Source: an uncultured Verrucomicrobiota bacterium (GTDB lineage Bacteria > Verrucomicrobiota > Verrucomicrobiia > Palsa-1439). From it: a DNA stretch of 33,785 nt. A program made the position numbers and the translations under genes. This document shows positions 20,924-33,785 of the stretch, in pieces. Every line of letters begins with the position of its first letter. Position 1 is the first letter of the stretch. The stretch covers positions 1 to 33,785 of the forward strand of contig CAINDI010000014.1 in the NCBI GenBank assembly GCA_903847335.1. The letters run 5' to 3'. The notes beneath the pieces were generated by a model, which saw only the letters and a list, made by a program, of their open reading frames with translations, was not told the DNA's origin and made no database searches.

Positions 20924-22642
20924 CTAGACTTTCCGCCCAAACTTTTTTTCCAACTCGGCATAGCTCATTTGAATCAGCGTCGGACGACCATGCGGGCAGG
21001 TATACGGTAGGTCACACCGGTGCAACTGTTCTAATAAACCGCGCAGTTCTTCGCCTCGCAATGGGTCGTGCGCCTTAACCGCGTGCCGGCACACCGTCGT
21101 CGCGATTTTATCTTCACCGAGCCGGCGAGCGTGAACTTGCTCGCCAGTTTGACGAAGCTCATCCACAATGTCGCGGAATGTTTGCGCGAGATTGTCTAAT
21201 TGAAAATACGGTGGTACGGCGTCAATCAGAAATGTTCGCTCACCAAATTCGCTAACGCCAAGACCTAATTTGTGCAGCGTCTTGAGATTGCCGCGTAAAA
21301 AATCTGCATCGCGCGCCTCCAACTCCAGCGTGACCGGCAATAACAACTTCTGCGATGGTGCGGATTCCACCGTCAATTCCCGGAGCATCTGCTCAAACAA
21401 CACTCGTTCATGCGCCGCATGTTGATCCATCAGCACGAGACCTTCCGGTGATTCGATCAAAACATAAAGTTGCCCAATCACACCAAGCACGCGCCAGCGA
21501 CCTTCTTCGGTTTGAACTTCCGCCGGAGCAACCGGCAACGATGTTTGCTCATAGGAACGATTCACCGGAACTGCCACTTCCGATGAGAACGGCGACGAAT
21601 AATCGAGCGGCTCATTCTTACTGGCAGTCGGCCAACCGACATTTGTGACTGGTTGAAATGTCGGCCCCGCCGGTGCAAGAGCTTGTCGCACGACATCAAT
21701 CACCGATTGCCGGACTGCGTATTCATCGCGAAATCGCACCTCACGTTTGGCCGGGTGAATGTTCACGTCCACCGCTGCCGGATCAATCTCGATAAATAAA
21801 AATGTGACTGGAAATCGGCCTTTCATCAACCCAGTATGATAGCCTTCCATGAGCGCGTAATTGATACCTTTGCTTTCCACTGGACGACCGTTGACAAAAA
21901 TATGCTGCTGGCTCCGGTCCGCACGACTAATTCCAGGCTTGCCAACAAAACCGTGAATCCCCTGCCCCTCCAGCGGCAACAATTGCGCAACGAGTTGATG
22001 ACCGTAAAGTTCCCGGAGTCGCCCGGCTAAGTCAGTTGCCGGCGCGAGATCAAAACGCGTCCGTTCGTCCACAACTAACCGGAACGCCACCGCCGGATGC
22101 GCCAGAGCGCAGAGCGTGACGATGTGCTCGATGTGCGCTGTTTCGGTTTGTTCTGACCGGAGAAATTTACGCCGTGCCGGTAAGTTGAAGAACAGATTTC
22201 GCACCTCCACCGTCGTGCCTTCGGCGGTCCCAACATCATTGACAGAGAGAATTTTACCACCAGCAATTTCAATTTGGGTACCGGCCAGTGCGCCACGTTC
22301 CCGACTTGTAAGCGTAAACCGCGACACAGCGGCAATACTCGGCACCGCTTCGCCGCGAAACCCAAGTGAACGGATGCTGTGCAAATCTTCGGCCGTGGTA
22401 ATTTTACTAGTGGCATGCCGTTCGAGCGCAAGCAACGCATCATCCCGGCTCATCCCAAAACCATCGTCGTTCACAATCACCGCTGAACGCCCACCCGCTT
22501 TAATGGTGACGGTAATGCGCTGAGCATCGGCATCGAGCGCATTTTCCAAAAGTTCTTTGACGACTGACGCCGGACGCTCCACCACCTCGCCGGCAGCGAT
22601 TTGGTTTGCGACATGTTCAGAAAGTAAACGGATTCGGTTCAC
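20924..22642 (-). CDS. mutL: DNA mismatch repair protein MutL
   Basis: MutL is the ATPase that connects mismatch recognition by MutS to strand incision. The N-terminal GHKL domain shows VANQIAAGEVVERPASVVKE, NALDADAQRI, VNDDGFGMSRDDA and RHATSKI...LGFRGEA, followed by the transducer domain with NGRPV and DVNIHPAKREVRF. The C-terminal domain contains DQHAAHERVLFEQ, the metal-binding endonuclease motif (DQHA-X2-E-X4-E), plus TTVCRHAVKAHDPL and CPHGRPT, so this is a nicking-type MutL as in MutH-less bacteria. At 572 residues it has a short linker. The start codon is GTG at 22642, where family homology begins. Its promoter region overlaps that of the divergent tRNA-His. Confidence 0.96.
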   Translation of the reverse strand: MNRIRLLSEHVANQIAAGEVVERPASVVKELLENALDADAQRITVTIKAGGRSAVIVNDDGFGMSRDDALLALERHATSKITTAEDLHSIRSLGFRGEAVPSIAAVSRFTLTSRERGALAGTQIEIAGGKILSVNDVGTAEGTTVEVRNLFFNLPARRKFLRSEQTETAHIEHIVTLCALAHPAVAFRLVVDERTRFDLAPATDLAGRLRELYGHQLVAQLLPLEGQGIHGFVGKPGISRADRSQQHIFVNGRPVESKGINYALMEGYHTGLMKGRFPVTFLFIEIDPAAVDVNIHPAKREVRFRDEYAVRQSVIDVVRQALAPAGPTFQPVTNVGWPTASKNEPLDYSSPFSSEVAVPVNRSYEQTSLPVAPAEVQTEEGRWRVLGVIGQLYVLIESPEGLVLMDQHAAHERVLFEQMLRELTVESAPSQKLLLPVTLELEARDADFLRGNLKTLHKLGLGVSEFGERTFLIDAVPPYFQLDNLAQTFRDIVDELRQTGEQVHARRLGEDKIATTVCRHAVKAHDPLRGEELRGLLEQLHRCDLPYTCPHGRPTLIQMSYAELEKKFGRKV

Positions 22643-22652
22643 AGGTTACCGT

Positions 22653-22680
22653 ACGATAGCTTGACCCTCTCCGCTTGCAA
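22653..22680 (-). promoter_or_regulatory. weak candidate promoter for mutL
   Basis: On the minus strand TTGCAA (22675-22680), 16 nt, TATCGT (22653-22658) could drive mutL with a leader of only about five bases. Both boxes match 4 of 6. It overlaps the plus-strand tRNA-His promoter. Confidence 0.28.
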
Positions 22681-22689
22681 TGCTAAAGT
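22661..22689 (+). promoter_or_regulatory. promoter of tRNA-His
   Basis: TTGACC (22661-22666), a 17-nt spacer and TAAAGT (22684-22689) lie 18 bases before the tRNA. The -35 box is identical to that proposed for nusA. Confidence 0.55.
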
Positions 22690-22706
22690 CGCATTCGCTT
22701 TTGGGT

Positions 22707-22784
22707 GGTGGCCGTAGCTCAGCCTGGTAGAGCTCCAGATTGTGGATCTGGCTGTCGCGGGTTCAAATCCCGTCGGTCACCCCA
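22707..22784 (+). tRNA. tRNA-His (GTG anticodon), CCA encoded
   Basis: The cloverleaf is complete: acceptor GTGGCCG (22708-22714) with CGGTCAC (22774-22780), including one G-U pair; D arm AGCTCAGCCTGGTAGAGCT; anticodon arm CCAGA-TTGTGGA-TCTGG with anticodon GTG; T arm GCGGG-TTCAAAT-CCCGT. The extra G at 22707 faces C73 at 22781, the G-1:C73 identity pair of tRNA-His. CCA follows at 22782-22784. Confidence 0.97.
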
Positions 22785-22808
22785 CCTACCCTTTGCAAGA
22801 AAGTCGCG

Positions 22809-23640
22809 CTAGAATCGGAATCCGACGCCACCGTTCACACTTTGCGAGGAGTATCCGGCGCGACCAACCTCCGTCGCATAGTTCAAGAAAGTTCCGACGG
22901 TCGGCGTCCATTGCACAGAGACACCGGCGCTAGTTGTCAAACTATCGCTCCCAATTGTCGGACCATACGAGGTGAATGTATTCCCGGCCCCATTTACAAA
23001 TCGCGCGTCCACGGAAGCACCCCGGTTAAGGTATTCGTGTTGCCATGCAACATTAAGCTCCGGTGTGACGAGGATGCTACGCCCCACTGTTTTGTTGAAA
23101 CCCACTCGACCGCCGAGTCGTGATTGCAGTGATTCTTGGCTTTGTGAGTCAATGTGCAATGGCGCCAACGATCCGCTCTCGTTAAAGGAACTCGTGTCAA
23201 CGCGCTTGTATTGCAAACCAAGTTGCGGACCAAAACTCCAATTGCCTTTCTGCCAATCGTACCCGCCACCAAGGAGACCGGTGAATTCTGTTCCGTCGGT
23301 GTGACCCACGGCCGGTTGTCCAAAGACAATCCGCCGAGTGTTGTAGGAATTGTACCCACCGCCCACTAAACCTTCCATATGCAGGCCCTCTTTGAACCAC
23401 GTGGCGTATAAACTCACTTGGCCGTTATCCACATCCATCTTGCCGTCGTTGTCGAGGTTGCCAAGCATATCGGCGTAACCGACCATCACGCCAACGACCA
23501 ACTCCTTGCCAAGTCGACGATCAATTCCGAGGGTAAAGCCACTACTGGTCAGGTGATAACCACTCGCGTTGGCATCCCCGTGCACGTTCACAAATTCACC
23601 GTTGCCTTCGACATACACCCCCCATGGATTGTCGGCCGTC
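22809..23640 (-). other. autotransporter C-terminal beta-barrel domain
   Basis: About 275 residues starting at NPWGVYVEGNGEFVNVHGD and ending FRF. Alternating amphipathic strands are visible (SGFTLGIDRRLGKELVVGVM, GQVSLYATWFKEGLHMEGLV, GGYDWQKGNWSFGPQLGLQY, SILVTPELNVAWQHEYL). The length fits a 12-stranded outer-membrane pore of the Va type. Confidence 0.9.
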
Positions 23641-26600
23641 GGATTGAGTGGGTCATCGGCCCGCATTGCATAGATTTGACCGGCATCGGCGGTGACGGCA
23701 ATCGGTTGGAGCGATTGGCCGGGGCCGTTGGGGTCGCTCAGGCTCAGGCGGTTGGCGCTGAAGCCGTGACTACCGGAGCGAAGTTCATTAACGCGGTTAA
23801 GGAAGTTGTATCCGCGAGCATCGAGACCGGCTAGACGGATGTCGTGCATCGCGGTGAGTGTGGCCGGTGAAAGCTGATCCAACGCCGCCGGGAGTTGGTT
23901 TGTGGGGAGCGAGGAAAGATAGGCAATCAAAAGACTCAGGCGCGGGTCACTGCTGGCGCCATCCAGGTTCCGTGCTAACCCATGTTGATTGGGGGTGTGC
24001 GCCAAGGGCGAGAACAATGTTGTCGCCGACAACCAAGTAAGGTCGACATAGCCCGGTAGATAAATCAACTTCGGTTTTAAGCCGGTTGCGATTTCATTCG
24101 TGAAGGTACTAAACGTGCCGGTCACAGTGCCGGCAGTGACGATTTTTTGCGTGTCACCAATGCTAGGCGTGTAGCCGTTGGACGGCAGAATATAGAGAGT
24201 GCCATTCAGACTCGCAGCACCTACGACGCTGAGGTAGCCATACTGGTTGGTCAAGATCCCGCCAATCGCCAGTTGCAGGGTGGCGGTGAAAGTTTGGGTG
24301 TAAGTCCCGCTGACGTGAACGGCGGAGAGCGGATCAATCCGTAGCGTACCGGCGTTAACCGTCAGGTTGCCGGCATGAACCGTGCCACCGGCTAAAACAT
24401 TCAGCCGGTTATTGCCGCCGTTTAATCCGATAAACAATGCACCACTATTATCCCACGTAGAGCCAGCACCGGTAACCGTGACCGTGTTGTTGCTGGAACC
24501 GCTGTTGGCGCCGATGTAGCCATTGACGCTGAACACAGCGCCACCATTGGTAATCGTCAGCGTGTTACCGGAGTTGACATACCCGATAGTCAAGTCATTG
24601 CGATTGCTCCAAATGGAGCCGGTACCGGTGACCGTCACGGCATTGTTGGAGCCGGTGGGAATAACCTCATCATCAATGAAGCCGTAAGCGTTCAATACCT
24701 TCCCGCCGTCAGCGATGGTTAACGTGTTGCGACTGCCATCAAAACCAACAAAGAGGTTGCCACTATTATTCCAGATTGAGTTCGTACCGGTAACGAGGAC
24801 GGAGTTGTTATCCGCCCCGGTACTATAGCCGATGTAGCCAGTGGTGTTGAATACGGTGCCGTTAGCGGCGATGGTCAGCGTGTTGCCGGAACTGTTATTG
24901 CCGACATAGAGATCGCCGCTGTTGGTCCAGACCGAGCCGGGGCCGGTCACGGTGACGCTGTTATTGCTGGCGCTGGCGTTGTCGCCAATGTAGCCATAGT
25001 TGTTACTTACGAAACCGCCGTTGGTGACGAGCAGTGTGTTGGCGTAACCATTTTCTCCTAGATAGAGGTCATGGTTCAGCCATTTCGAGTTGGGGCCGTC
25101 TACAGTGATGGTGTTGTGACCGCCGCCAGAATTGGCGACATAGACGTCGTTATTACTGACCACGCCGCCGTTGCGAATGGTCAGAGAGTTGCCGCTACCA
25201 AGATCACCAAAGTCAATGTCGGCGTTTTGCCAGCGCGAACCGGTGCCATCCACAATGATGGTGTTGTTGCTTGCCAAGGCGGACGCACCGACAATGGCCA
25301 TCGTGTTAATGACAACACCGCCATTGGTAATAATCAGCGAATTGCCAGGGCCGCCGTTACCGACGTAAAGGTAGCCGGTATTTTCCCAAACGGAGCCAGC
25401 ACCGGTGACGGTGACCGTGTTGTCGCTGGCCCATCTGTTTCTACCAATGATGCCGCTGACGTTGTACACCGTGCCGCCATCGGAGATGATCATGGAGTTG
25501 CTGGCACCGGAGTTGCCGACGACGAGGTCGGTGCTGTTGCTCCAGACGGAACCGAAGCCGGTGACGAGGACGGAGTTGTTGCCGGAGCCGGCGGTGAAGC
25601 CGATGGTGCCGCAATTGCTGAATACTTTGCCGCCGTTGGAGATAATCAGGGAGTTGTTTTGGCTTTGCCAATAGCCGACGAATATGCCTTGTACCATGGT
25701 ATTACTCCAGACGGAGCCGGCACCGGTGACGAGGACGGAGTTGTTGTTGGCGCCGGCAGGATTTAGGTTGCCATTATTGTCGCCGATGTAGCCGCTGGCG
25801 CTGAACACGGTACCGCTGTTGGCAATGGTCAGCGTGTTGAAAGAGCTAGCCGCGCCAATCGAGAGATAATACTGGTTCTGCCAGAGTGAGCCGGCACCAG
25901 TGACGAGGACGGCATTGCTGTTGGCACCGGCGTTGGAGCCGATTTCGGTGCCGGCGTTGGTGACAATGACGCTGCCGCCGTTGGCAATGGTCAATACATT
26001 ACCGGAGCTATCTGAGCCAATGCTGAGACCACTGCTGTTATTCCAGACGGAACCAGCGCCGGTCACGGTGACGGCGTTGTTGCTGGCGCCGGTGGTGCAA
26101 CCGATACTACTCGAGCCGGTGCTGTACACGGCACCACCGTTGGTGATAGTCAAACTGTTTCCAGAACCCCAGACGCCGATAAGCCCCCCGCTATTACTCC
26201 AAACTGAACCGGCGCCGGTGACGAGGACGGAATTATTGCTGGCGCTCGTGTCATTGCCGATGTAGCCGAGTAAGCTGAATACGGTGCCGCTACTGGCAAT
26301 CGTCAGCGTGTTGCCGGCCCCAGAGTTACCAACGACCAGGTTACCGCTGTTATTCCAAACCGAGCCGGCACCGGTGACGAGGACGGAATTATTACTGGCG
26401 GCAGAACTATTACCCACATAGCCATGAACATTAAAAACGGCGCCGCTGTTAGCAATCGTCAGCGTGTTTCCGGAACCGATGAAGCCGATGTAGAGGTCAG
26501 AGCCGTTACTCCAAACGGAGCCGGCACCGGTGACGGTGACGGTGTTGCTCGTACCGGTGTAACCGATGAAGCCATAGCGTGTATTGAATACCGTGCCGCT

Positions 26601-29600
26601 ATTAGAGACGACTAGCAAGCTACCAGAACCGCTAGCACCAACGTAGAGATCGCCATTGTTGTTCCAGACAGAATTGCTACCGGTGACCGTGACGGAATTA
26701 TTGGTCGCGCTCGCTTGAGCCCCAATGGAGCCGTTGGCGTTGAACACGGTGCCGCCATTGCTAATCGTCAGCGTGTTACCGGAGCCAAAGTCACCAACAT
26801 AGAGTTCGCTACTGTTGCTCCAAACCGAACCGGAGCCGGTCACAGTGACGGTGTTGTTGCTGGCGCCGGTGTCGAAGCCGATGAAACCGTAAGTATCAAA
26901 TACTTTCCCACCGGTGGCGATGGTCAGTGTGTTGCCAGCGCTATGGCAGCCAACCTCAACAATGCCGCTGTTATTCCAGACGGAACCAGCGCCGGTCACG
27001 GTGACGGAGTTATTACTGGAGATTGCGTCCCAACCGATGTAGCCAGTGGCGTTATACACGGTGCCGCTGTTGGCAATCGTCAGCGTGCTGCCCCAACCCC
27101 ATTTTCCAACGTAGAGGTCACCGGTGTTGTTCCAGACGGAGCCAGCGCCGGTCACGGTGACGGAATTACTGTGACCACCAGACCCGAAGCCAATGACGCT
27201 ATCGTAGCCGTTGCCAACTATGACGGTGCCGCCATTGGTAACGGTCAGACTGTTGTAAGAACCATCCCTGCCAACGTTAAGTTCGCTGCTATTATTCCAA
27301 ACCGAGCCCGCGCCGGTCACGGTGACGCTGTTGCTGTTGGCATCGGTGACAAACCCGATGAAGCCTTCGATGTTATACACCGTGCCACTATTGGCAATCG
27401 TCAATGAGTTACCGGAGCCGTAGATGCCGACAGCCAGACTACTATTGTTATTCCAGGTCGCGCCATTGACGATCACGGCATTGTTGCTGGCGGTACTCTG
27501 GCTGCCAATTACTCCGTTGAAGTTGTTGACAGTGCCACCATTGGAAATGGTCAGCGAGTTAGCGGAACCAGAGTAGCCAATATTAAGATCGCCGCTGTTG
27601 CTCCAGACGGAATCCGAACCGCTAACGGTCACGGTATTGTTACTGGCTTCCGCTTCGTAGCCGACGTAGCCGTTGACGTTGAAGACCGCACCGCTGTTGG
27701 TGATAACCAAGGTGTTGTTGATACCGTGATACCCCACGTAGAGATCGTTGCCGTTATTCCAAACCGAACCGGAGCCATTGACGTTGACGGCATTATTATT
27801 CCCATTGGAACCAATGTACCCGGTGGCGTTGTACACCGTGCCGCTATTGGCAAAAGTCAGGGAGTTACCGGAAGAGTTACTCCCGATTAACATATCGCCA
27901 GTACTCACCCATAACGAACCAGCGCCGATGACAGTGATGGTGTTGTTGGAGCCGACAAAACTAGCTGTGGCAAATACTTGGCCGCCGTTGGAAATAGTCA
28001 GCGTATTACCGTACCCACCGTTCTCACCAATATACAGATTACCAGAATTGCTCCAGACCGAACCACTACCGGTGACAGTGACCGCGTTGCTATTCTCACC
28101 GACGTTATTGCCGACGTAGCCATTGACGTTGAACACCGTGCCGCTGTTGGCAATCGTCAACGAGTTGTAAGACGCATTGGTTCCAATGTACAGGTTACCG
28201 GCGTTAATCCACGTGGAGCCGGCGCCGGTGACAATGACGGCATTGTTGCTCGCACTCACATTCGCGCCGATGTAGCCGTTGGTATTAAATACGGTGCCAC
28301 CATTGGAAATAATCAAGGTGTTCGCAACTCCATGAGCGCCGACGATGAGGTCGCCGTTGTTCGTCCAAGTGGAACCCGAACCCGTTACCGTTACGAGATT
28401 GCTGGAGCTATTGAAACCGGGACCATCCACAAAACCATTGGCATCCAACACGGTTCCACCGGCGGCAATCGTGAGTCGGTTGCTGGAGCCTTGATACCCA
28501 ACATAGAGATTCCCGCTATTATTCCAAACCGAGCCGGGACCGGTGACGAGGGCCGCGTTACCCTTCGCCGCGCTGTTGCTGCCGATGTAACCGGTGGCAT
28601 CGTACACGGTGGCGGCATTGCTGATGATGAGCGCGTTGCCGCCGCTTAAGTTACCGATGACGAGGTCATTTTGGAAAGAATGCGTGCCGCCGTTGGCGAT
28701 GAAGGTCGCATTGCCGCCGGTGTCGCCGACGACGAAGCTTGAGCCGTTGCTGACGGTGGTGCCTTGGGAGTTGATTGTGCCGCCGTTGAAGGTGATGACG
28801 CCACCGGCGTTGGTGGTGATGAGTTGCTGGACCAACACTGTGCCACCGGAGATGTTCAACTGAGCGGAGCCGCTAGCGCCGGCGGCGTTGACCGTCAGCG
28901 TGCCGTTAGTCACGGTCAACTGGCCGCCGCTGATGTTCAGGACGTTGTTGGAGGCGCCGGCAAGGGCGCTGATCGTCATATTGCCGTCGACGTTTACCGC
29001 GCCGCTGTTGGTGATGGTCAGCGTGTTGCCGGAGCCGAAAAAGCCGACATTGAGGCTGTCGCTGGTCTTCCAGACGGAGCCGGTGCCGGTGACGGTGACG
29101 GCGTTGTTATTCGCACCAGCCTGATTACCGATATAACCGTACCCGTTAAACACGGTACCGCCGTTGGTGATGGTTAGCGTGTTGCCGGAGCTAAGGTTGC
29201 CGACGTAGAGTTCGTCGCTGTTGCTCCAGACGGAGCCGGTACCGGTGACGAGGACGGCGTTGCTGTTGGCGCCATATTGTTTGCCGATGTAGCCGGCGAT
29301 GTTGTAAACCGTGCCGCCGTTGGCGATGGTCAGCGTGTTGCCGGACCCGCCAGTACCGACATAGAGCAGGTCGCTATTGTTCCAGATTGAGTTCGTGCCG
29401 GTGACTGTGACGGAGTTGTTGTTGGCGCCCGCCCAAAACCCAATGTAGGCGATGGAGTTTACCACTTGGCCGCCATTGGAGATAACGAGCGAGTTGCCGG
29501 AGCCGGTCTTGCCGACGTAGAGTTCGCTGGAGTTGTTCCAGACGGAACCAGAACCGGTGACGGTGCCGGCATTGTTGTTGGCGGAAATACCGATGGAACC

Positions 29601-32600
29601 GATCGCGTCGAACACTTGGCCGCCATCGGCGATGGTCAGCGTGCTGCCGGACTCGCCAGTGCCGACGGACAGATTGCTGGTATTGCTCCAGACGGAGCCG
29701 GCGCCGGTGACGGTGCCGGCGTTGTTAAGGGCGTAAAAACCGATGGAACCGGAAGTGTCGAACACCTGGCCGCCATTGGCGATCGTCAGCGTGTTATTGG
29801 AACCGTACACGCCGATACTGAGGTCACCGCTACTGGTCCAGACGGAGCCGGCCCCGGTCACGGTGCCGGCGTTATTGCTGTTGGAGTTGCTGCCGATGTA
29901 GCCGTACCGGCTGAACACCGCGCCGCCGTTGGTGATGATCAGCGTGTTGCCGGAACCATACTCGCCGACGAAGAGGTCATTGGAGTTTCGCCACACGGAG
30001 TTAGTCCCAGTGACGGTGGCGGTGTTGTTGTTGGCAGTTTCACGGTAGCCGATGTAGCCATACCGGCTGAACACGCTGCCACCGTCCGCGATGGTCAGCC
30101 GGTTGCCGGAACCGCTCGCGCCGACGTAGAGATCGTAGCGGTTGGAGCACACGGAACCGGCGCCGGTGACAGTGACGGTGTTGTTGCTGGCGCAGTCGAA
30201 GTCACCGATATAGCCGTAGTTGTTGATCACGGCGCCGCCATTGGCAATGGTCAGACTGTTACCAGAGCCGTAATCGCCGACGACGAAGCCGCTGCTATTC
30301 CAGACGGAGTTACTGCCGGTCACGGTCACGGCGTTATTGATAGAGTTAGTCCGGTAGCCGATCCGGCTTAGAGAGTCGAACACGGTGCCGCCGTTGGCAA
30401 TCGTCAGCGTGTTACCGGAGCCATAGTCGCCAACAAAGAGGTCGCCACTGTTGGTCCAGGTGGAGCCGGTACCGGTGACGAGGACGGCGTTGCTGTTGGC
30501 ATTGGCATTGTCGCCGATGTAACCGTTGACGCTGAACACGTTGCCGGCATTGGAAATGGTCAGCGTGTTGAAGGAACCACGGGAATCGGTGCCGCCGACA
30601 TATAGGGCGCTGCCGTTGCTCCAAACCGAACCGGCGCCGGTGACGAGGACGCTGTTGTTCGTGCCGTAATCGCCAATGTAGCCGTAGCCGTTGGTCACTA
30701 CGCCGCCGTTAGCAATCGTCAGTGTGTTGCTGGAGCCTTTGTAGCCGACGTAGAGAGTGCCAGTGTTGTACCAAGCGGAGTTGGTGTCAGTCACCGTCAC
30801 GGTATTGCTGTTGGCACCAAGCTTGTAGCCGATGTCGGCTTCGCCCGTGTTGTACACCTTGCCGGCATTGGAAATGGTCAGCGTGTTGAAGGCACCACGC
30901 GAGCCGGTGTCATAGCCACCGACATAGAGGTCGCTGCCATTACTCCAGACGGAACCGGCGCCGGTGACGAGGACGCTGTTGTTCGTGCCGTAATCGCCAA
31001 TGAAGGTGTAGTTTCCGTTGGTCACCACGCCGCCGTTGGCAATTGTCAGCGTGTTACTGGAACCTGTGAGGCCGATGTAGAGCCAGCCGTTGTTGTACCA
31101 AGCCGAATTGGTACCGGTCACGGTCACCGTGTTGCTGTTGGCACCGGTGGACTGACCGATGGAGCTGCCAGTAGCACTGAACACTTTGCCAGCGTTGGAA
31201 ATGGTCAGCGTGTTGAAGGCCGCAGCGGGGCCGCCGACGTAGATGTAGGCATTGCTCCAAACCGAACCTGGTCCGGTGACGAGGACGCTGTTGTTCGCGC
31301 CGGGGGAGCCAATGTAGCCGGTGCCGTTGGTCACCACGCCGCCGTTGGCAATCGTCAGCGTGTTGCTGGAACCAGATTTGCCGACGTAGAGGTCGCCGGC
31401 ATTATACCAAGCGGAGTTGGTGTCGGTCACCGTCACGGTATTGCTGTTGTCACCGGCGGAGAAACCAATGTAGCTGGAGCCCACGCTGAATACTTTACCG
31501 GCATTGGAAACTGTTAGCGTGTTGAATGAACCGGCAGAAAAAAAGCTGAAGCTGCCGACGTAGAGGCTGCTGCCGTTGCTCCAAACCGAACCTGGTCCGG
31601 TGACGAGGACGCTGTTGTTCGTGCCGTAATCACCAATGACGCCGTAGCCGCCGTTGGTCACCACGCCGCCGTTGGCAATCGTCAGCGTGTTGCTGGAACC
31701 GTAGTTGCCGACGTAGAGGTTGCCGCTGTTGTACCAAGCGGAGTTGGTGTCGGTCACCAGCACCGTGTTGCTGTTGGCACCGGCATTGAATCCGATGCTA
31801 CTGCCCGTGCTGAACACTTTGCCGGCATTGGAAACTATCAGCGTGTTGAAGGCACCGGCGGACCCGCCGCTGTAACTGCCGACGTAGAGGCTGCTGCCGT
31901 TGCTCCAGACGGAACCGGCGCCGGTGACGAGGGCGCTGTTGTTCGTGCCGTAATCGCCAATGTCGCCGGTGGTGTTGTTGACCACTTTACCGCCGTTGGC
32001 AATCGTCAGCGTGTTACTGGAACCGGATGCACCGACGTAGAGGCTGGTGTTGTACCAAGCGGAGTTGGTGCCGGTCACGGTCACGGTATTGCTGTTGGCA
32101 CCGGCAAGGTAGCCAATGTAGCTACTGCCCACGCTGAACACCTTGCCGGCGTTGGAAATGGTCAGCGTGTTGAAGGAACCACGGGAATCGGTGCCGCCGA
32201 CATATAGGGCGCTGCCGTTGCTCCAAACCGAACCGGCGCCGGTGACGAGGACGCTGTTGTTCGTGCCGTAATCGCCAATGTAGCCGGCACCGTTGGTCAC
32301 CACGCCGCCGTTGGCAATCGTCAGCGTGTTGCTGGAACCAGAGTAGCCGACGTAGAGGTTGCCGCTGTTGTACCAAGCGGAGTTGGTGTCGGTCACCGTC
32401 ACCGTGTTGCTGTTGGCTCCGGCACTGAAACCGATGATGCTACCGAACGCGCCACCCGTGCTGAACACCTTACCACCATTGGAAATGGTCAACGTGTTGT
32501 AGGAACCGGCAGAATCGTAGCCTCCGACGTAGAGGCTGCTACCGTTGCTCCAGATCGAACCGGCACCGGTGACGAGGGCGCTGTTGTTCATACCGAAATC

Positions 32601-33785
32601 GCCAATGTAGCCAGTGGTATTGGTCACCAGACCGCCGTTGGCAATCGTCAGCGTGTTGCTGGAACCTATGTAGCCGACGAAGAGATCGCCATTGTTGTAC
32701 CAAGCGGAGTTGGTGTCGGTCACCAGCACCGTGTTACTGTTGGCACCGATGAGGTCGCCGATGTAGCTACTACCCACGCTGAACACTTTGCCGGCATTGG
32801 AAACTGTCAGCGTGTTGAAGGCACCACGGGACGCGCCGCTGTAACTGCCGATGTAGAGGCCGCTGCTGTTGCTCCAGACGGAACCGGCGCCGGTGACGAG
32901 GACGCTGTTGTTCGTGCCGTAGTTGCCGATAATACCGGTGCCATTGGTCACCAGACCGCCGTTGGCAATCGTCAGCGTGTTGCTGGAGCCTTTGTATCCG
33001 ACGTAGAGAGTGCCGTTGTACCAAGCGGAGTTGGTGCCGGTCACCGTCACGGTGTTATTACTAGCCCCGGCGTTATAGCCGATGTAGCTCATGCCGGTGT
33101 TGAACATCGTGCCGGCGTTGGTAATGGTCACGCTGTTGCCGTAACCATCGACGCCGAGTTTCAGAGTATCACCACCGCCATTGGAGTTGTTCAAGAGCGA
33201 GTTTGTACCGGTGACCACGATGCTGTTGCTGGTGTCGCCGGCACTGGAGCCGATTTGGGAGATAATGGCGAACACCTTACCGCCGGCGGCAATGGTCAAG
33301 TTGTTACTGGAACCGCCGTAGCCAACTTCGAGGAAGAAAGCGTTACTCCAGACCGAGCCGGCACCGGTCACCAGCGCGCTGTTGTTTTTGCCGCCATTGC
33401 CGATAACGCTCCAATTGCTGCTGTTGAATACTTTGCCGCCATTGGAAATGGTCAGCGTGTTAAAGGCGCCGAAGTTGCCGACGTTGACAGCACCGCTATT
33501 ACTCCAAACTGAGCCGGGGCCGGTGACGAGGACGCTGTTGTTGGTGCCATAATAGCCGATGGAGCCGCTGGAGTTGGTCACCACGCCGCCGTTGGCAATC
33601 GTCAGCGTGTTACTGGAACCGGAGTAGCCGACGTATATGTCGCCGGCATTGTACCAAGCGGAGTTGGTGCCGGTCACCGTCACGGTGTTGCTGTTGGCAC
33701 CGGTGGCATAGCCGATATAGTTGGTGGTGTCGTACACTTTGCCGCCATTGGAAATGGTCAACGAATTGAAGGCACCATTGGTGCC
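22809..33785 (-). CDS. giant autotransporter adhesin-like protein, T5SS/PEP-CTERM-associated repeats (5' end outside window)
   Basis: One frame runs from the window edge to TAG at 22809-22811, more than 3,650 codons; it is still open at 33785, so the signal peptide and N-terminus are missing. From N to C: about 30 repeat units, a non-repeat beta-helical insert (28660-29005), about 28 more units, a cap region (about 24040-24400, with GTYTQTFTATLQLAIGG), a helical linker with LPAALDQLSPATLTAMHD, and a C-terminal beta-barrel of about 275 residues ending in GGVGFRF with the terminal Phe used by the BAM complex. Each unit carries GNTLTIANGG.V, a Y/S-IG turn, VTVTG.GS.W and LYVG, the pattern of the T5SS/PEP-CTERM-associated repeat. 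A type Va self-exported surface protein with a beta-helical passenger is expected. Cys is nearly absent. Ligand and function are unknown. Confidence 0.93.
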   Translation of the reverse strand, partial: GTNGAFNSLTISNGGKVYDTTNYIGYATGANSNTVTVTGTNSAWYNAGDIYVGYSGSSNTLTIANGGVVTNSSGSIGYYGTNNSVLVTGPGSVWSNSGAVNVGNFGAFNTLTISNGGKVFNSSNWSVIGNGGKNNSALVTGAGSVWSNAFFLEVGYGGSSNNLTIAAGGKVFAIISQIGSSAGDTSNSIVVTGTNSLLNNSNGGGDTLKLGVDGYGNSVTITNAGTMFNTGMSYIGYNAGASNNTVTVTGTNSAWYNGTLYVGYKGSSNTLTIANGGLVTNGTGIIGNYGTNNSVLVTGAGSVWSNSSGLYIGSYSGASRGAFNTLTVSNAGKVFSVGSSYIGDLIGANSNTVLVTDTNSAWYNNGDLFVGYIGSSNTLTIANGGLVTNTTGYIGDFGMNNSALVTGAGSIWSNGSSLYVGGYDSAGSYNTLTISNGGKVFSTGGAFGSIIGFSAGANSNTVTVTDTNSAWYNSGNLYVGYSGSSNTLTIANGGVVTNGAGYIGDYGTNNSVLVTGAGSVWSNGSALYVGGTDSRGSFNTLTISNAGKVFSVGSSYIGYLAGANSNTVTVTGTNSAWYNTSLYVGASGSSNTLTIANGGKVVNNTTGDIGDYGTNNSALVTGAGSVWSNGSSLYVGSYSGGSAGAFNTLIVSNAGKVFSTGSSIGFNAGANSNTVLVTDTNSAWYNSGNLYVGNYGSSNTLTIANGGVVTNGGYGVIGDYGTNNSVLVTGPGSVWSNGSSLYVGSFSFFSAGSFNTLTVSNAGKVFSVGSSYIGFSAGDNSNTVTVTDTNSAWYNAGDLYVGKSGSSNTLTIANGGVVTNGTGYIGSPGANNSVLVTGPGSVWSNAYIYVGGPAAAFNTLTISNAGKVFSATGSSIGQSTGANSNTVTVTGTNSAWYNNGWLYIGLTGSSNTLTIANGGVVTNGNYTFIGDYGTNNSVLVTGAGSVWSNGSDLYVGGYDTGSRGAFNTLTISNAGKVYNTGEADIGYKLGANSNTVTVTDTNSAWYNTGTLYVGYKGSSNTLTIANGGVVTNGYGYIGDYGTNNSVLVTGAGSVWSNGSALYVGGTDSRGSFNTLTISNAGNVFSVNGYIGDNANANSNAVLVTGTGSTWTNSGDLFVGDYGSGNTLTIANGGTVFDSLSRIGYRTNSINNAVTVTGSNSVWNSSGFVVGDYGSGNSLTIANGGAVINNYGYIGDFDCASNNTVTVTGAGSVCSNRYDLYVGASGSGNRLTIADGGSVFSRYGYIGYRETANNNTATVTGTNSVWRNSNDLFVGEYGSGNTLIITNGGAVFSRYGYIGSNSNSNNAGTVTGAGSVWTSSGDLSIGVYGSNNTLTIANGGQVFDTSGSIGFYALNNAGTVTGAGSVWSNTSNLSVGTGESGSTLTIADGGQVFDAIGSIGISANNNAGTVTGSGSVWNNSSELYVGKTGSGNSLVISNGGQVVNSIAYIGFWAGANNNSVTVTGTNSIWNNSDLLYVGTGGSGNTLTIANGGTVYNIAGYIGKQYGANSNAVLVTGTGSVWSNSDELYVGNLSSGNTLTITNGGTVFNGYGYIGNQAGANNNAVTVTGTGSVWKTSDSLNVGFFGSGNTLTITNSGAVNVDGNMTISALAGASNNVLNISGGQLTVTNGTLTVNAAGASGSAQLNISGGTVLVQQLITTNAGGVITFNGGTINSQGTTVSNGSSFVVGDTGGNATFIANGGTHSFQNDLVIGNLSGGNALIISNAATVYDATGYIGSNSAAKGNAALVTGPGSVWNNSGNLYVGYQGSSNRLTIAAGGTVLDANGFVDGPGFNSSSNLVTVTGSGSTWTNNGDLIVGAHGVANTLIISNGGTVFNTNGYIGANVSASNNAVIVTGAGSTWINAGNLYIGTNASYNSLTIANSGTVFNVNGYVGNNVGENSNAVTVTGSGSVWSNSGNLYIGENGGYGNTLTISNGGQVFATASFVGSNNTITVIGAGSLWVSTGDMLIGSNSSGNSLTFANSGTVYNATGYIGSNGNNNAVNVNGSGSVWNNGNDLYVGYHGINNTLVITNSGAVFNVNGYVGYEAEASNNTVTVSGSDSVWSNSGDLNIGYSGSANSLTISNGGTVNNFNGVIGSQSTASNNAVIVNGATWNNNSSLAVGIYGSGNSLTIANSGTVYNIEGFIGFVTDANSNSVTVTGAGSVWNNSSELNVGRDGSYNSLTVTNGGTVIVGNGYDSVIGFGSGGHSNSVTVTGAGSVWNNTGDLYVGKWGWGSTLTIANSGTVYNATGYIGWDAISSNNSVTVTGAGSVWNNSGIVEVGCHSAGNTLTIATGGKVFDTYGFIGFDTGASNNTVTVTGSGSVWSNSSELYVGDFGSGNTLTISNGGTVFNANGSIGAQASATNNSVTVTGSNSVWNNNGDLYVGASGSGSLLVVSNSGTVFNTRYGFIGYTGTSNTVTVTGAGSVWSNGSDLYIGFIGSGNTLTIANSGAVFNVHGYVGNSSAASNNSVLVTGAGSVWNNSGNLVVGNSGAGNTLTIASSGTVFSLLGYIGNDTSASNNSVLVTGAGSVWSNSGGLIGVWGSGNSLTITNGGAVYSTGSSSIGCTTGASNNAVTVTGAGSVWNNSSGLSIGSDSSGNVLTIANGGSVIVTNAGTEIGSNAGANSNAVLVTGAGSLWQNQYYLSIGAASSFNTLTIANSGTVFSASGYIGDNNGNLNPAGANNNSVLVTGAGSVWSNTMVQGIFVGYWQSQNNSLIISNGGKVFSNCGTIGFTAGSGNNSVLVTGFGSVWSNSTDLVVGNSGASNSMIISDGGTVYNVSGIIGRNRWASDNTVTVTGAGSVWENTGYLYVGNGGPGNSLIITNGGVVINTMAIVGASALASNNTIIVDGTGSRWQNADIDFGDLGSGNSLTIRNGGVVSNNDVYVANSGGGHNTITVDGPNSKWLNHDLYLGENGYANTLLVTNGGFVSNNYGYIGDNASASNNSVTVTGPGSVWTNSGDLYVGNNSSGNTLTIAANGTVFNTTGYIGYSTGADNNSVLVTGTNSIWNNSGNLFVGFDGSRNTLTIADGGKVLNAYGFIDDEVIPTGSNNAVTVTGTGSIWSNRNDLTIGYVNSGNTLTITNGGAVFSVNGYIGANSGSSNNTVTVTGAGSTWDNSGALFIGLNGGNNRLNVLAGGTVHAGNLTVNAGTLRIDPLSAVHVSGTYTQTFTATLQLAIGGILTNQYGYLSVVGAASLNGTLYILPSNGYTPSIGDTQKIVTAGTVTGTFSTFTNEIATGLKPKLIYLPGYVDLTWLSATTLFSPLAHTPNQHGLARNLDGASSDPRLSLLIAYLSSLPTNQLPAALDQLSPATLTAMHDIRLAGLDARGYNFLNRVNELRSGSHGFSANRLSLSDPNGPGQSLQPIAVTADAGQIYAMRADDPLNPTADNPWGVYVEGNGEFVNVHGDANASGYHLTSSGFTLGIDRRLGKELVVGVMVGYADMLGNLDNDGKMDVDNGQVSLYATWFKEGLHMEGLVGGGYNSYNTRRIVFGQPAVGHTDGTEFTGLLGGGYDWQKGNWSFGPQLGLQYKRVDTSSFNESGSLAPLHIDSQSQESLQSRLGGRVGFNKTVGRSILVTPELNVAWQHEYLNRGASVDARFVNGAGNTFTSYGPTIGSDSLTTSAGVSVQWTPTVGTFLNYATEVGRAGYSSQSVNGGVGFRF
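24400..28660 (-). repeat. C-terminal array of about 28 monomeric T5SS/PEP-CTERM-associated repeats
   Basis: Counting the GS.W core gives about 28 units averaging some 50 residues (about 150 bp). They differ in sequence more than the units of the N-terminal dimer zone and show no alternation. Plus-strand reading frames across this stretch are antisense shadows produced by the repeated codons. Confidence 0.85.
28660..29005 (-). other. non-repeat beta-helical insert separating the two repeat arrays
   Basis: About 115 residues without the GS.W core: NVDGNMTISALAGASNNVLN, ISGGQLTVTNGTLTVNAAGA, LNISGGTVLVQQLITTNAGG, then a SNGSSFVVGDTGGNATFIAN segment. The strand-turn pattern is still beta-helix-like and resembles the PATR-type strands of other autotransporters. 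Confidence 0.65.
30550..30684. repeat. 135-bp perfect direct repeat, copy 1
   Basis: Base-for-base identical to 32152-32286, 1602 bp away (offset divisible by 3). Encodes, on the minus strand, the segment from GDYGTNNSVLVTGAGSVWSN through GSALYVGGTDSRGSFNTLTI. Confidence 0.9.
32152..32286. repeat. 135-bp perfect direct repeat, copy 2
   Basis: Second copy of the 30550-30684 segment. The sequences diverge at both ends immediately outside the 135 bp. Confidence 0.9.

Follow-up and report, generated by a model that had tools for sequence, protein, structure and literature searches.

The contig analysed here raises the question of how an array of paired repeat units arose within a giant surface protein of an uncultured Verrucomicrobiota bacterium, and how long ago. 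A preliminary description of this DNA had proposed a recent expansion by in-frame duplication of two-unit blocks at the surface-distal end of an N-terminal passenger. The window is the whole contig (G000:C14), 33785 bp long, from a genome assembled in 177 contigs. Its minus strand carries a very large gene whose frame is still open at position 33785, inside a partial B-like repeat unit (33702-33785). Because the contig ends within the repeat array, the true N-terminus and the total copy number lie outside it, and a search of every other contig of the same genome recovered neither the missing 5' part nor further A/B units. The array does belong to an autotransporter passenger, but it is N-terminal only with respect to the assembled part; its surface-distal position is reasonable from how autotransporters work, although the real N-terminus lies beyond the contig. 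The N-termini of related genes look signal-peptide-like when judged by eye; the corresponding end of the window gene is outside the contig.

Sequence matches identify the protein as a T5SS (type Va) autotransporter, with both the barrel and the repeat family well above their curated cut-offs. The barrel scores 203 bits against PF03797 and 106.6 bits against TIGR01414, and the protein terminates in VGFRF, with the C-terminal Phe expected of a type Va barrel. The passenger matches TIGR04393 (rpt_T5SS_PEPC) with 1666 bits in 54 stretches, against a curated cut-off of 23 bits. The window protein therefore shares both repeat unit and barrel with the TIGR04393/PF03797 autotransporters; the family model covers single units, and the two-unit arrangement lies outside it. 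The string TIGR04393 was not found in the literature searched. A Pfam XLF match in the repeats was judged compositional noise, and PDB sequence matches to GAPDH were judged chance. Across the genome, 74 TIGR04393 unit matches are spread over two genes. The second family autotransporter (L026, G000:C125:10456-15207; 1866 aa) shows a weaker two-unit alternation, of 52- and 56-aa units.

Cutting the whole passenger gave 57 units (u00-u56), mostly 49-59 aa long (Table 1). The higher-order array consists of eight dimers of about 107 aa, each pairing an A unit (TNSAWYN core, 49-51 aa) with a B unit (GSVWSN, 53-59 aa); most B units have an additional loop. The hexamer CCAAGC, which the preliminary description had used as a marker, is the reverse complement of GCTTGG, which on the minus strand codes for Ala-Trp within TNSAWYN. 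Its eight reported positions (33021, 32700, 32373, 32055, 31734, 31407, 31098 and 30771) are all exact, as are the seven spacings (321, 327, 318, 321, 327, 309 and 327 bp), all in frame, and B units do alternate with A in all eight dimers. There is also a ninth in-register copy, 633 bp from the next with three other units in between; the hexamer also occurs at 30817, where it does not represent the marker. Tandem Repeats Finder gives 8.1 copies of a 324/327-bp period between 30531 and 33138 (score 2603). At the contig-end side, the order is the partial B-like unit, A-type u00, B-type u01, the irregular u02 and u03, and then the dimers. At about 28572-28960, the monomeric array is interrupted by a stretch of other beta-helix-like sequence without TIGR04393 units.

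Table 1. Features of the autotransporter gene and its repeat arrays in the window.
Feature	Coordinates	Strand	Basis
Giant autotransporter gene, 3658 aa, 5' end missing	22809..33785	-	Frame open at contig end (33785)
C-terminal autotransporter beta-barrel	22812..23633	-	PF03797 E=9e-60; TIGR01414
Barrel-proximal monomeric array u20-u56, 37 units of ~52 aa	24339..30503	-	Unit cutting, lag identity, divergence
Higher-order array, eight A/B dimers u04-u19	30504..33068	-	TRF, unit cutting, lag identity, shuffle test
A unit 1 (u04)	32922..33068	-	Unit cutting, lag identity
B unit 1 (u05)	32748..32921	-	Unit cutting, lag identity
A unit 2 (u06)	32598..32747	-	Unit cutting, lag identity
B unit 2 (u07)	32421..32597	-	Unit cutting, lag identity
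A unit 3 (u08)	32271..32420	-	Unit cutting, lag identity
B unit 3 (u09)	32103..32270	-	Unit cutting, lag identity
A unit 4 (u10)	31953..32102	-	Unit cutting, lag identity
B unit 4 (u11)	31782..31952	-	Unit cutting, lag identity
A unit 5 (u12)	31629..31781	-	Unit cutting, lag identity
B unit 5 (u13)	31455..31628	-	Unit cutting, lag identity
A unit 6 (u14)	31305..31454	-	Unit cutting, lag identity
B unit 6 (u15), shortest and most diverged B	31146..31304	-	Unit cutting, divergence
A unit 7 (u16)	30993..31145	-	Unit cutting, lag identity
B unit 7 (u17)	30819..30992	-	Unit cutting, lag identity
A unit 8 (u18)	30669..30818	-	Unit cutting, lag identity
B unit 8 (u19)	30504..30668	-	Unit cutting, lag identity
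B-type u01 and irregular u02, u03, breaking register	33069..33551	-	Unit cutting
Ninth A-type unit u00, outside regular array	33552..33701	-	CCAAGC at 33654
135-bp tract identical to 30550-30684 (u08/u09 vs u18/u19), conversion-like	32152..32286	-	
135-bp tract identical to 32152-32286	30550..30684	-	

The two-unit order is real and tidy. In a codon alignment of all units, mean nucleotide identity across u00-u19 was 0.756, 0.774 and 0.773 at lags 2, 4 and 6, whereas lags 1, 3 and 5 gave 0.606, 0.611 and 0.618. Same-type units thus share 74-77% of their bases at every even lag, compared with about 61% at odd lags, and individual same-type pairs are 67-93% identical in DNA. This is the excess at offsets of about 320 bp over those of about 160 bp that the preliminary description had predicted. 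Random reordering of the units never reached the observed contrast (0.206, with a null maximum of 0.112). The barrel-proximal units u20-u56 are 0.60-0.62 identical whatever the lag, so the earlier view of that array as monomeric and more diverged holds as well.

To place these units in a fold, we used an AlphaFold model of u08-u11 (two dimers), built from an alignment of 23 four-unit blocks, which reached a mean pLDDT of 93.2 and a pTM of 0.91. Each unit in the model contains six short strands, forming two coils of three, with the triplets about 25 aa apart. The spacing from coil to coil follows a recurring series of about 26, 23, 30 and 27 aa. The passenger is accordingly modeled, that is, predicted, as a three-stranded beta-solenoid in which a unit makes two rungs and a dimer four. 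Foldseek searches against the PDB and viral models returned nothing at E<=0.001, and since no solved structure was matched, the solenoid rests on prediction. The classical beta-helix passengers antigen 43 and EspP were among the weak Foldseek matches, all with E>0.04; the window protein shares with them a predicted three-stranded solenoid and a C-terminal barrel, but no significant structural or sequence match (Foldseek; PDB sequences). Beta-solenoids rise by 4.8 angstrom per rung, and at this usual rise each dimer would add about 19 angstrom. The extra B residues follow the third strand of a rung and precede the first strand of the rung after it, in a region of lower model confidence. These loops, between YVG and FNTL, are fixed in place but variable in length and sequence. 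In the B units of u05-u19, the number of residues between YVG/YIG and FNTL/YNTL is 5, 7 or 9, always odd, perhaps reflecting two-residue steps that keep the strand alternation; the independent copies are few. We infer a role for the passenger as a stalk or adhesive fibre.

We then asked how old the array is, using Nei-Gojobori counts with the Jukes-Cantor correction applied to the mean. Silent divergence (dS) is about 0.39 between A units, about 0.49 between B units, 0.88 for A against B, and 1.3 for the monomers; same-type units differ at 31% of silent sites in the case of A and 36% in the case of B. Compared with the monomeric array, the dimer array is younger, but it is not recent on the scale of strain-level change, and the word "recent" in the preliminary description is not supported.

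Stepwise growth, in which intact two-unit blocks were recently duplicated next to one another, would account for the two-unit periodicity, the in-frame spacing and an identity above that of the monomeric array. It agrees poorly with silent differences at 31-36% of sites, and the similarity of units does not clearly fall with their distance in the array: over all sites the correlations were r=0.17 and -0.17, although A third positions taken alone gave r=0.41 (p=0.03). Stepwise growth also predicts that A and B units record the same history. The A-unit and B-unit similarity matrices were uncorrelated in the AB phase (r=0.00, p=0.51) and in the BA phase (r=0.19, p=0.31), with third-position values of r=-0.38 and 0.27, respectively. 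In simulations of stepwise dimer duplication, the median A/B correlation was 0.93, and 0 of 400 runs fell at or below 0, while a simulated rapid burst gave a median near 0; these simulations were neutral and ignored selection. We therefore regard stepwise growth as unlikely. The in-frame two-unit structure proposed earlier stands, but block duplication is not supported as the latest process. An older amplification burst, followed by divergence and short-tract copying, fits the data.

Alternatively, the alternation might be kept by selection on rung packing or loop spacing with little recombination, the likeness of the units then reflecting constraint. dN is indeed below dS within A (0.14/0.39) and within B (0.21/0.49), and the B loop keeps its place while varying in sequence and length. 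Protein constraint nevertheless leaves unexplained why silent sites are similar as well (dS of 0.4-0.5 within a type, compared with 1.3 for monomers), and it offers no explanation for the exact 135-bp tract. Selection as the sole cause is thus about as unlikely as stepwise growth; constraint may act in addition to recombination.

The 135-bp tract is the longest exact repeat in the array, and its two copies lie five dimers apart. A run test over polymorphic sites, applied across whole dimers, found it significant (p=0.001); the next-best dimer pair was borderline (p=0.045), and the remaining pairs were not significant. Inside single units, the same kind of test was not significant for A (p=0.18) or B (p=0.05). 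The tract shows later copying between distant dimers. Continuing exchange between dimers is weakly shown, because one copied tract is clearly significant and the second is borderline. Taken together, the silent divergence, the A/B incongruence and the 135-bp tract indicate that the array has a greater age, and has been reshuffled by recombination to a larger extent, than had been supposed.

The same tract bears on a technical explanation, namely that a short-read assembly of metagenome type produced the array by collapsing or misjoining repeats. The assembly is fragmented (177 contigs), and this contig breaks off within the repeats, so that collapse or misjoining may have occurred; the likeliest place for it is the 135-bp tract, at the inner edge of the dimer array. 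The longest other exact repeat is 53 bp, however, so most units can be distinguished by ordinary short reads, and the same kind of higher-order array occurs in other assemblies. An artefact of this type could alter the copy number but could hardly invent eight distinct dimers, and we consider it highly improbable as the origin of the array.

In our judgement, the locus probably encodes a type Va passenger solenoid shaped by in-frame A/B amplification, followed by divergence and short-tract recombination. The passenger would form one continuous three-stranded beta-solenoid projecting from the cell surface. In the lineage of the window, in-frame amplification would have brought a neighbouring A and B pair to at least eight copies, after which the array diverged and short stretches were probably copied between same-type units by recombination. 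Both amplification and exchange may have proceeded via homologous recombination or slippage. Since each unit comprises complete rungs, gain or loss of a dimer would make the solenoid four rungs longer or shorter and leave it unbroken, which shows a way for a beta-solenoid surface protein to lengthen while keeping its fold. As most B units carry an extra loop between rungs, the array would display one variable loop per four rungs. One could go further and view the dimer array as a recombination cassette that, in a little-studied and uncultured lineage, continually makes new surface-loop combinations, the B loops being reshuffled by tract copying and by copy-number change in whole rungs; we find this extension doubtful. 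Amplification followed by divergence is otherwise ordinary tandem-repeat evolution in a known autotransporter family, and a common growth route for stalk-like proteins.

To set the array in context, we examined related genes. A barrel alignment search returned 10 loci, all from Verrucomicrobia or uncultured bacteria, the named ones being uncultured Verrucomicrobia metagenome assemblies, and a close barrel was present in 32 of 384 genomes of the class. The two-unit contrast was significant against shuffled order in 8 of 30 long repeat frames, a count that includes the window and one duplicate pair; the 30 frames contain at least two pairs that are the same gene fetched twice (about 28 proteins), and the p values are nominal per frame and bounded at 0.005. 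Array designs differ, with 50- and 48-aa units alternating in G002:C61. In the genes that were resolved rung by rung, each repeating block comprises only complete rungs, either three or four. What looked like dimers in G013 and G020 (L030/L053) is in fact an 86-aa, three-rung period, or one and a half family units. Frames of 7302 aa (L029/L090, G020:C45) and 6410 aa (L031, G028:C16), with about 75-96 units, showed no significant two-unit pattern. In G008:C7 (L028), the homologous gene occupies two open frames of 2184 and 1126 aa, the split probably being due to a frameshift or to faulty assembly.

TNSAWYN is absent from all other fetched proteins, and nearly all array units match their own protein best, the exceptions being irregular and flanking units. 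Within the fetched proteins, these comparisons point to independent, lineage-specific amplifications. A contig search with the dimer protein gave no match, its patterns being too specific.

A natural copy-number event is recorded in the homologous genes of two related species, G013:C14 and G020:C107, which are about 90% identical over their 3' part and carry 258-bp repeats. Repeat E1 of G020 is a hybrid of D1 and D2: over its first 120 bases it departs from D1 at four positions, and beyond base 134 it is identical to D2. Repeats E2 and E3 are the counterparts of D3 and D4 (92% and 90%). The net change is 258 bp, one whole repeat period, and the hybrid is a clean record of one copy-number event. 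It gives direct support for whole-period recombination in the family, in this gene and not in that of the window. Given this one-period difference between species, strain-level copy-number variation, which the preliminary description had raised, is plausible.

Arrays of this kind have parallels elsewhere. In alpha-satellite higher-order repeats, multi-monomer blocks are more alike than neighbouring monomers are, and a diverged monomeric flank is present. The window array resembles them, by analogy, in block likeness and monomeric flank; alpha-satellite arrays are non-coding and far larger, whereas that of the window is coding, in frame and only eight dimers long. Periscope Proteins (SasG, Aap, Rib; inverse autotransporters) are long repetitive surface stalks in which repeat number varies, SasG being counted in E-G5 two-domain repeats; their repeats are individually folding, highly identical domains, and length varies between strains (PMC9704523). 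The window array is instead a continuous predicted solenoid of units roughly 80% identical, and falls outside a definition based on highly identical, individually folding repeats. Repeat-number variation in passengers has already been documented for the Orientia Sca autotransporters (PMC6168176).

Finally, we looked at the surroundings of the gene. The gene is followed on the same strand by mutL, about 166 bp downstream. This neighbourhood is not found in G001 (same genus, MutL 81% identical to that of the window), G002, G010 or G003, and none of the 8 relatives examined has a repeat gene directly at mutL. Unlike in the window, a different gene precedes mutL in G001, G010 and G003 (L093, L095, L097), a conserved one with a QVDIEHRRTL or similar motif; comparison with window 20924-22809 places the autotransporter in the position of this gene. 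A plasmid search gave only weak matches, below 60% identity and mostly rhizobial. Among the parts of the gene, third-position GC content of codons is highest in the dimer array (0.78), followed by the monomeric array (0.72) and the barrel (0.58).
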